The notes beneath the pieces are model-generated. The model was not told the origin of the DNA. It ran no database searches and worked only from the letters and a program-made list of their open reading frames with translations. Made by a program: the position numbers and the translations under genes. A stretch of DNA of 62,350 nt, taken from the NCBI GenBank assembly GCA_903834145.1, contig CAILHY010000011.1, forward strand, positions 1-62,350, written 5' to 3'. This document shows, piece after piece, positions 41,803-43,933 of this stretch; within the stretch, counting starts at the first letter, position 1, and each line of letters opens with the position of its first letter. This DNA is from an uncultured Actinomycetes bacterium. GTDB taxonomy: Bacteria; Actinomycetota; Actinomycetes; Nanopelagicales; Nanopelagicaceae.

Positions 41803-42408
41803 TTATCTTTCCGGTACGGCAGAAGGTGAAATGACAGCAAGGGCTACCTCTTTCATGCTCAAACGCCTGTCCATGGCCGCCCTTTGGATCCACGAAAATG
41901 CCTCGGGTTCGCTGAGATTCAATGCCGCCATGAGGATGCCTTTGGCGCGATCAATGAGTTTGCGAGTTTCTAGGCGTTCGTGAAGGTCAGCAACTTCCGC
42001 GGCAAGAGATGTCATTTGCTGATGCCGACTCATAGCAATTTCCATAGCAGGCACTAAGTCGGCGATCGAAAATGGCTTCACAACGTAGGCCATTACGCCA
42101 GCATCGCGTGCTCGATCCACTAATTCCTTCTGACTAAATGCAGTCAGCATCAAAACGGGTGCAATGGAAATAATTGTCTCTGCTGCAGAAATTCCATCAA
42201 GCACAGGCATCTTCACATCAAGGATTGCCAAATCTGGTGTGAACACTTTTGCCAGGGCAATTGCTTCTTCACCATTGCTTGCTTGAGCAACAACGTCATA
42301 ACCCGCCTCGATGAGCATTTCAACAAGGTCCATACGAATAAGAGTTTCATCTTCAGCAACCAAAATCCTGGCAGGTGCCTTGGCGGCAGAAGGAATCGTT
42401 GAACTCAT
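41803..42408 (-). CDS. ANTAR-domain response regulator (PdtaR-like)
   Basis: Two-component regulator that acts on RNA, by preventing termination or blocking translation. The 201-aa protein has a receiver domain (14-130; phospho-acceptor D64 in LAILDVKMP, acidic pair E19/D20, K111 in VVKPF) and a C-terminal ANTAR domain (about 138-195, with LIDRAKGILM and FSWIQRAAM). It resembles mycobacterial PdtaR. No other start codon lies before the receiver core, so ATG at 42408 is firm; it is 1 nt after the end of a tRNA, leaving no room for a ribosome binding site outside the tRNA. Its cognate kinase is not in the window. Confidence 0.92.
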   Translation of the reverse strand: MSSTIPSAAKAPARILVAEDETLIRMDLVEMLIEAGYDVVAQASNGEEAIALAKVFTPDLAILDVKMPVLDGISAAETIISIAPVLMLTAFSQKELVDRARDAGVMAYVVKPFSIADLVPAMEIAMSRHQQMTSLAAEVADLHERLETRKLIDRAKGILMAALNLSEPEAFSWIQRAAMDRRLSMKEVALAVISPSAVPER

Positions 42409-42409
42409 G

Positions 42410-42482
42410 TGCCCCGAGTCGGATTCGAACCGACACTATGCAGTGTTTGAGACTGCCCTCTCTACCGTTGGAGTACCGAGGC
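42410..42482 (-). tRNA. tRNA-Leu(CAA)-like, short variable loop
   Basis: A 73-nt cloverleaf on the minus strand: 7-bp acceptor stem (GCCTCGG with TCGGGGC, two G-U pairs), T8, a 3-bp D stem CTC/GAG with GG in the loop, anticodon stem GCAGT/ACTGC around loop CTCAAAC (anticodon CAA), a variable region of only 5 nt (ATAGT), T stem GTCGG/CCGAC with loop TTCGAAT, and A73. No CCA is encoded. CAA reads the UUG leucine codon, but bacterial leucine tRNAs normally have a long variable arm. It lies 11 nt after the pyk stop and 1 nt before the ANTAR regulator. Confidence 0.88.
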
Positions 42483-42493
42483 GCGGGCTTAGT

Positions 42494-43933
42494 CTAGCGA
42501 TAAGCCGGCGCAACTCCGCCAATGGCATCGCCTATGCAATGCACCCGCAACGCGTTGGTTGAGCCTGGAATTCCGGGAGGTGAGCCAGCCACAATAATAA
42601 TGAGTTCGCCAACTTGTGCTCTTCCAGACTCGATGAGCACGGTATCTACCTGCTTGACCATTTCATCCGTAGTTTTTACGACGGGGGCAATCATGGATTC
42701 CACTCCCCAGGACAGAGCCATGCGGTTATACGTTCCAGCATCGGGCGTCAACGCAAGAATTGGAATCGCAGAACGCAATCTGGCCATTCTCTGAGCCGAA
42801 TCCCCACTCTTTGTGAAGGCGACTAAGAATTTAGCGCCTACTGTTTCACCAACATCTTTAGCGGCCTTAGTAATTGCGCCACCTTTTGTTCTTGGTGAAT
42901 GTTGCAGTGGGCGAATGCGATCAAGTGCTTCCGCTTCAGTTTTTTCAATAATGCGAGCCATTGTTGCTACCGCTTCAATCGGAAAGTCGCCAACACTAGT
43001 TTCGCCAGAGAGCATGAGTGCATCGGCTCCATCGAGAACCGCATTTGCGCAATCTGTAGCTTCGGCGCGAGTGGGGCGCGAATTTGTGATCATGGAATCA
43101 AGCATTTGCGTTGCCACAATGACCGGCTTTGCAGCTTCACGTGCCATTTCTACGCATCGTTTTTGCACGAGCGGAACATCCTCGATCGGAAGTTCTACTC
43201 CGAGGTCTCCACGCGCCACCATGATGCCATCGAATGCGTCGACAATCCCCTGAAGATTCTCTACTGCTTGAGGTTTTTCAATCTTGGCAATCACCGGAAT
43301 ACGGATACCTTCTTCATCCATGATGCGATGTACATCTTCAATATCTTCGGCGCTTCGGACAAAGGAAAGAGCGATGAAATCGGCGCCAGCATGTAGGCCC
43401 CAACGAAGGTCGTCAATATCTTTCTCAGACATTGCAGGCACGGAAACAGCTACGCCAGGTAAATTGATGCCCTTATTGTTGCTAACAGCACCAGGTTCGA
43501 TGACTTTGGTTATCACGTCATTACCTTTTACTTCAATAACTTCAACAGTCACTTTTCCGTCATCGATCAGGATTCGATCTCCGGCCTTGCAATCACCGGG
43601 AAGTCCTTTATAGGTGGTCCCGACCTTCTCTTTTGTGCCCTCAACCTCATCGGTCGTTATTGTGAAGATATCACCACGCGCTAAGTCATGAGGTCCATCA
43701 ATGAATCGGGCAAGGCGAATTTTTGGACCTTGAAGATCAACAAGGATCGCGACTGCAACTCCTGCCTCTTTTGCCGCGGATCGGACACGGTCATATCGAA
43801 CTTGATGTTCTTCATAGCTTCCATGTGAGAGGTTTAATCGCGCCATATTCATTCCGGCTGAAATAAGTTCTTTCACCTTTTCGGCAGACTCAACAGCAGG
43901 TCCCATGGTGCATACAATCTTGGCTCTACGCAT
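42494..43933 (-). CDS. pyk: pyruvate kinase
   Basis: Converts phosphoenolpyruvate and ADP to pyruvate and ATP. The 479-aa protein has KIVCTMGPA at the start, NLSHGSYEEH, the metal/K+ site region VDLQGPKIR, the catalytic IPVIAKIEKPQAVENL and MVARGDLGVELP, and the DSMITNSRPTRAE helix. ATG is preceded by TAAGGT and 6 nt, the box overlapping the gltD stop, so it probably has a leaderless transcript in addition to read-through. Followed after 11 nt by a tRNA. Confidence 0.96.
   Translation of the reverse strand: MRRAKIVCTMGPAVESAEKVKELISAGMNMARLNLSHGSYEEHQVRYDRVRSAAKEAGVAVAILVDLQGPKIRLARFIDGPHDLARGDIFTITTDEVEGTKEKVGTTYKGLPGDCKAGDRILIDDGKVTVEVIEVKGNDVITKVIEPGAVSNNKGINLPGVAVSVPAMSEKDIDDLRWGLHAGADFIALSFVRSAEDIEDVHRIMDEEGIRIPVIAKIEKPQAVENLQGIVDAFDGIMVARGDLGVELPIEDVPLVQKRCVEMAREAAKPVIVATQMLDSMITNSRPTRAEATDCANAVLDGADALMLSGETSVGDFPIEAVATMARIIEKTEAEALDRIRPLQHSPRTKGGAITKAAKDVGETVGAKFLVAFTKSGDSAQRMARLRSAIPILALTPDAGTYNRMALSWGVESMIAPVVKTTDEMVKQVDTVLIESGRAQVGELIIIVAGSPPGIPGSTNALRVHCIGDAIGGVAPAYR

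Follow-up and report, generated by a model that had tools for sequence, protein, structure and literature searches.

A tRNA-Leu(CAA) gene with a class I variable loop between pyk and a pdtaR-like gene, and the occurrence of its scaffold among Actinomycetota

In the window (the whole 62,350-nucleotide stretch of DNA that was analysed), a tRNA gene lies between two protein-coding genes, with all three on the minus strand. The upstream gene, pyk (42494–43933, minus strand), encodes pyruvate kinase with the Pfam domains PK and PK_C and ends 11 nucleotides before the tRNA. The downstream gene (41803–42408, minus strand) encodes a pdtaR-like response regulator carrying receiver and ANTAR domains (Pfam), and its ATG starts 1 nucleotide past tRNA base 73. 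ARAGORN reports a tRNA-Leu(CAA) on the minus strand from 42482 to 42410, and the Rfam family RF00005 matches the same interval over its full length with 52.1 bits (E 2.5e-8), which exceeds the tRNA family's gathering score of 29. ARAGORN and Rfam/Infernal arrive at one and the same cloverleaf, and no better-scoring fold with a non-leucine anticodon, an outcome envisaged by a first-pass annotation of this DNA, was found. A scan with the sigma-70 consensus found no promoter adjoining the tRNA.

The class I form tRNA-Leu(CAA) encoded here (42410–42482, minus strand; 73 nucleotides, CCA not encoded) reads from 5' to 3' as GCCUCGG UA CUC CAACGGUAGA GAG G GCAGU CUCAAAC ACUGC AUAGU GUCGG UUCGAAU CCGAC UCGGGGC A. 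Its anticodon, identified as CAA in the sequence and by ARAGORN (42447–42449, minus strand), reads UUG. The D arm (42458–42473, minus strand) presents A14, A15, G18 G19 and A20a, which are leucine identity positions (PMC9976931), on a 3-bp stem (CUC/GAG), and the acceptor stem contains two G-U pairs, U4-G69 and G7-U66. Sequence and alignment place a short variable loop, AUAGU (42435–42439, minus strand), which ends in A46 G47 U48, where a long arm would otherwise be. This loop of 5 nucleotides falls within the class I range of 4–5 nucleotides and below the 10 or more of a class II variable arm; in place of the usual class I core of G15-C48 and G46, the tRNA has A15-U48 and A46. The earlier description of a 73-nucleotide Leu-CAA cloverleaf with a 5-nucleotide variable loop and two acceptor G-U pairs, which gave no strand, is thus upheld by ARAGORN, RF00005 and covariation. 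Its further description of a weak 3-bp D stem is correct as to length and not as to weakness, since class II tRNA-Leu share a D stem of this size.

The fold was assessed in an alignment of 13 sequences, comprising 11 CAA genes of the pdtaR region (that of the window included) and the two UAA genes of the same genome. Cloverleaf pairing holds in 98.1% of the alignment cells and falls to 33–51% when the partners are slid, while double-change cells number 49 compared with 15.0 in shuffles, indicating compensatory covariation. The nucleotides A46 G47 U48 are invariant across these sequences. A model built from the 13 aligned sequences (R1) gives the window tRNA 90.1 bits and the genome's own class I tRNA-Leu 80–95 bits, and no other sequence tested, class II tRNA-Leu among them, exceeds 58.7 bits. 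R1 has matches in 363 of the 395 genomes examined from the same class, and thereby in 125 of 137 genera, in 174 of 198 in a smaller draw, and in 67 of 246 genomes of an even draw of the phylum, including classes beyond Actinomycetes. A lack of conservation in related genomes, which the first-pass annotation had named as evidence against its reading, is therefore not what these counts reveal. The two acceptor-stem G-U pairs, together with an RF00005 score that is modest for a class I tRNA, might suggest a pseudogene or a decayed, unused class II tRNA-Leu. We give this almost no weight, given retention of the scaffold throughout the class, its strong covariation and the failure to find an alternative CAA tRNA in the genome.

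All sampled R1 hits are leucine tRNAs with anticodon CAA or UAA, joined in some families by UAG; one call of 'Phe AAA' (L134) proved to be a misread Leu UAA. When public genomes were scanned with a pattern that placed no constraint on the anticodon, all of at least 118 stretches proved to have a leucine anticodon. Among the matches listed, the anticodons are UAA (56), CAA (48), UAG (11), and AAG, CAG and GAG (1 each), and the named organisms include Streptomyces lincolnensis, Mycobacterium asiaticum, Corynebacterium, Nocardia, Rhodococcus, Bifidobacterium, Microbacterium and Candidatus Planktophila versatilis.

In E. coli, the identity of tRNA-Leu resides in A73, A14, A15-U48, G18 G19 and A20a, and LeuRS does not require the long variable arm (PMC9976931). 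The window tRNA carries every one of these nucleotides. When A14, A15, A20a, U48 and A73 are scored together, all five are present in 186 of 191 class I tRNA-Leu, 21 of 22 class II tRNA-Leu and 0 of 79 other tRNAs, a count that is to some extent built in where R1 or the pattern supplied the sequence, but not where synteny did. The set is also complete in the window tRNA and in all ten CAA genes found by synteny (11/11). The LeuRS of this cell would recognize the features that have been kept, namely A73, the A15-U48 Levitt pair, G18 G19, A20a and the corner formed by the D- and T-loops.

Bacterial class II tRNA-Leu, such as E. coli leuZ and Streptomyces bldA, share with the window RNA the leucine anticodons, A73, A14, A15-U48, A20a, the 3-bp D stem and, for the most part, G47-U48 ahead of the T stem. 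They differ from it in their long variable region, which spans 11–21 nucleotides in the class II set compared (189 of the 191 class I tRNA-Leu have a 5-nucleotide loop), and at positions 9, 12, 13, 23 and 46. Here the class I core has A9, C12-G23, C13 opposite A22 and A46, whereas the class II core mostly has G9, G12-C23 and G13 opposite A22. From these nucleotides we infer the tertiary contacts of the short-loop core, whose changes presumably let a 5-nucleotide loop close the L shape.

To judge what UUG means in this organism, 25 proteins of the window and LeuRS were aligned with their E. coli K-12 homologues. Leucine stands in the E. coli protein opposite 52% of UUA, 50% of UUG, 53% of CUU, 49% of CUC, 41% of CUA and 49% of CUG codons, compared with 2–26% for the other codons checked. 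E. coli leucine is thus found opposite UUR codons no less often than opposite CUN codons. UUR therefore stands for leucine in this organism, and leucine must be what is attached to the tRNAs that read it. Reassignment of UUG or UUA was rejected on this alignment. The first-pass annotation had allowed for charging with another amino acid, in which case UUG would be reassigned or mistranslated. A class I shape is indeed unusual for leucine, and anticodon and shape alone are no proof of charging, but the codon alignment, the intact leucine identity set and the restriction of the scaffold to leucine anticodons among the matches listed make this reading extremely improbable. The same annotation had also proposed a minor UUG decoder. 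Decoding of UUG is retained and the word 'minor' is not, because UUG makes up 407 of 2009 leucine codons in the window ORFs plus leuS (UUR, 673 of 2009) and no second CAA tRNA was detected.

The genome that contains the window (G000) has 43 tRNA matches, and its tRNA-Leu loci were typed by ARAGORN. The single Leu CAA gene and both Leu UAA genes (C2 and C21) have short loops and are class I, whereas the CUN decoders, Leu UAG, CAG and GAG, have a long arm and are class II. A count of the other tRNA-Leu genes, which had been proposed as a check, found no class II CAA or UAA tRNA in this genome; more broadly, no class II NAA tRNA was found among its 43 tRNA matches, in an assembly (1.75 Mb, 33 contigs, 98.6% complete) where one could be hidden, and no second CAA tRNA was found besides the gene in the window. 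The only tRNAs found to read UUR in this genome are thus class I. The same arrangement occurs in two closed genomes, one of the same family (G140) and one of 6.0 Mb from the same class (G074): their UAA and CAA tRNAs are class I, and none of their class II-size tRNAs, which are solely Leu CUN, Ser and Tyr, has an NAA anticodon. In the part of a further genome that was read (G023), the UAA tRNA is class II and resembles bldA, and the CAA tRNA is class I. One LeuRS scores above the family cut-off in the window's genome, with editing and anticodon-binding domains, and a special LeuRS for the short tRNA was rejected given this single enzyme with normal domains. Overall, the window RNA is very probably a functional elongator tRNA-Leu(CAA) on a class I scaffold, which reads UUG and would receive leucine from the one ordinary LeuRS of the cell. 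As a separate observation, the second tRNA-Leu(UAA) of this genome (L042:101–172, minus strand; 72 nucleotides), located ~100 nucleotides from a contig end, is one acceptor-stem base short in the alignment and, judging by its sequence, may be degenerate.

Comparison of loci supports the earlier suggestion that similar short Leu-CAA genes occur near pyk, and it places them near pdtaR as well, across Actinobacteria. In the window's family the tRNA and pdtaR are co-directional (11 loci: that of the window and L103–L121), and in 10 of these loci, the window included, the two genes abut in a C-ATG junction (42406–42410 in the window) in which a single base separates tRNA base 73 from the pdtaR ATG. 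In L115 and L121 the receiver domain follows this ATG almost immediately, so that no other start codon is feasible, and any pdtaR ribosome-binding site would have to lie within the tRNA. Once the tRNA 3' end is trimmed, the remaining pdtaR mRNA would begin C-AUG, and 3' processing of the tRNA may therefore form a near-leaderless pdtaR mRNA in the window's family, as the layout of the junction suggests. Leaderless mRNAs are common in actinobacteria.

Given this position in the pdtaR leader, which places the RNA 1 nucleotide ahead of the start codon at 10 of the 11 family loci, and the presence in PdtaR of ANTAR, a known RNA-binding domain, the RNA might instead be a tRNA-like regulatory element of the pyk-pdtaR operon and not a decoder; the first-pass annotation had also considered a regulatory tRNA-like RNA. 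The association of the tRNA with pdtaR is old, but its orientation varies, and the two genes are divergent in many other families. Moreover, the scaffold is also found elsewhere with anticodon UAA, it occupies many unrelated sites, where the matches listed have leucine anticodons alone, and the genome yielded no further CAA tRNA. A purely regulatory RNA was thus rejected as the main role and is very improbable, whereas a secondary regulatory role is possible alongside decoding. Separately, in one genus (g15) either a class II (L060) or a class I (L064, L065) tRNA-Leu(CAA) lies at about equal distance from pdtaR. Since both forms occur near pdtaR in this genus, the form may have switched recently.

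The origin of the scaffold was considered from its nearest relatives. Class II tRNA-Leu is the nearest non-scaffold sequence for 154 of 191 class I tRNA-Leu (in a comparison whose group sizes are uneven), and G47-U48, G21-A22 and A20a are common to the scaffold and class II tRNA-Leu. These likenesses suggest that the class I scaffold arose from a class II tRNA-Leu that lost its arm. The alternative that a different class I tRNA gained leucine identity is unlikely but deserves attention, as core positions 9, 13 and 22–23 are partly class I-like, the nearest non-scaffold sequence is not tRNA-Leu for 37 of the 191, and the tRNA tree is unresolved, the sequences being too short.

Outside Actinomycetota, the genomes surveyed came from the phyla of a Rokubacteria genome and of a Christensenellaceae genome. 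In the former, 9 of 79 genomes have an R1 match. Five of these loci were read, and in each the match lies within a Gly-Cys-Leu(UAA) tRNA cluster that resembles glyW-cysT-leuZ of E. coli, whose leucine tRNA at this place is class II. In the latter, only 1 of 249 genomes has a match that scores like the scaffold; of the weaker matches, the two examined proved to be Met- and Phe-type tRNAs. Plasmids gave no match to the scaffold. Class I tRNA-Leu occur in phages of Streptomyces, Mycobacterium, Synechococcus, Lactobacillus, Enterococcus, Erwinia and Escherichia, with anticodon UAA, CAA, UAG or CAG in the phage loci L352, L353 and L364–L369. A phage tRNA of another isotype has been reported to compensate when an essential host tRNA is lost (PMC10865867); by analogy with the M. 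asiaticum locus (L272), the M. smegmatis gene would be class I. A broader and more doubtful proposal, which we offer tentatively, is that one class I tRNA-Leu scaffold, spread partly by phages, replaced class II tRNAs for UUR across Actinomycetota and in a few lineages elsewhere, overturning the class II rule, and that in Nanopelagicaceae-like bacteria its 3' processing also makes the near-leaderless 5' end of pdtaR.

According to a 2023 review, tRNA-Leu is long-armed everywhere save in animal mitochondria (PMC9976931). The animal mitochondrial tRNA-Leu(UUR) likewise lacks the long arm, decodes UUR and has A14 and A73 as determinants (PMC9976931), but it is structurally loose and served by a mitochondrial LeuRS, whereas the window RNA is a compact bacterial cloverleaf in a cell that has a bacterial LeuRS. 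A tRNA-Leu(UAG) in a Mycobacterium tRNA gene cluster also has a short variable loop, noted there as unlike the normal isoacceptor, although that report concerns one gene cluster and not a general chromosomal UUR decoder (PMC6582537). M. tuberculosis tRNA-Leu-2, 3 and 5 have been named as long-looped (PMC11541572), and six Streptomyces genomes are listed with one CAA gene each in passages silent on its shape (PMC4932002). Class I genes are routinely annotated as tRNA-Leu. In the open-access literature we found no account of class I tRNA-Leu as a general feature of actinobacteria, and earlier recognition is possible. Because the short form is normal in most actinobacteria tested, the universal long-arm rule of the review needs correcting.

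Most sampled Actinomycetes genomes have a short tRNA-Leu, with species of Mycobacterium, Corynebacterium, Streptomyces and Bifidobacterium among those named, and the short form offers a natural test of what the arm contributes to LeuRS recognition and to the exclusion of other synthetases. It also bears on isotype-model tRNA annotation, on orthogonal tRNA design and on tRNA-targeting toxins that read the variable loop.

Two minor observations concern individual loci. The class I tRNA-Leu(CAA) at L125:1000–1073 (minus strand) has G15-C48 replacing A15-U48, a compensated Levitt pair, and is in this respect an exception to the five-nucleotide identity set scored above. The loci L321, L327 and L333 are arrays of 4–11 tRNA genes with several class I tRNA-Leu (CAG, GAG and CAA) and are possibly mobile tRNA arrays.
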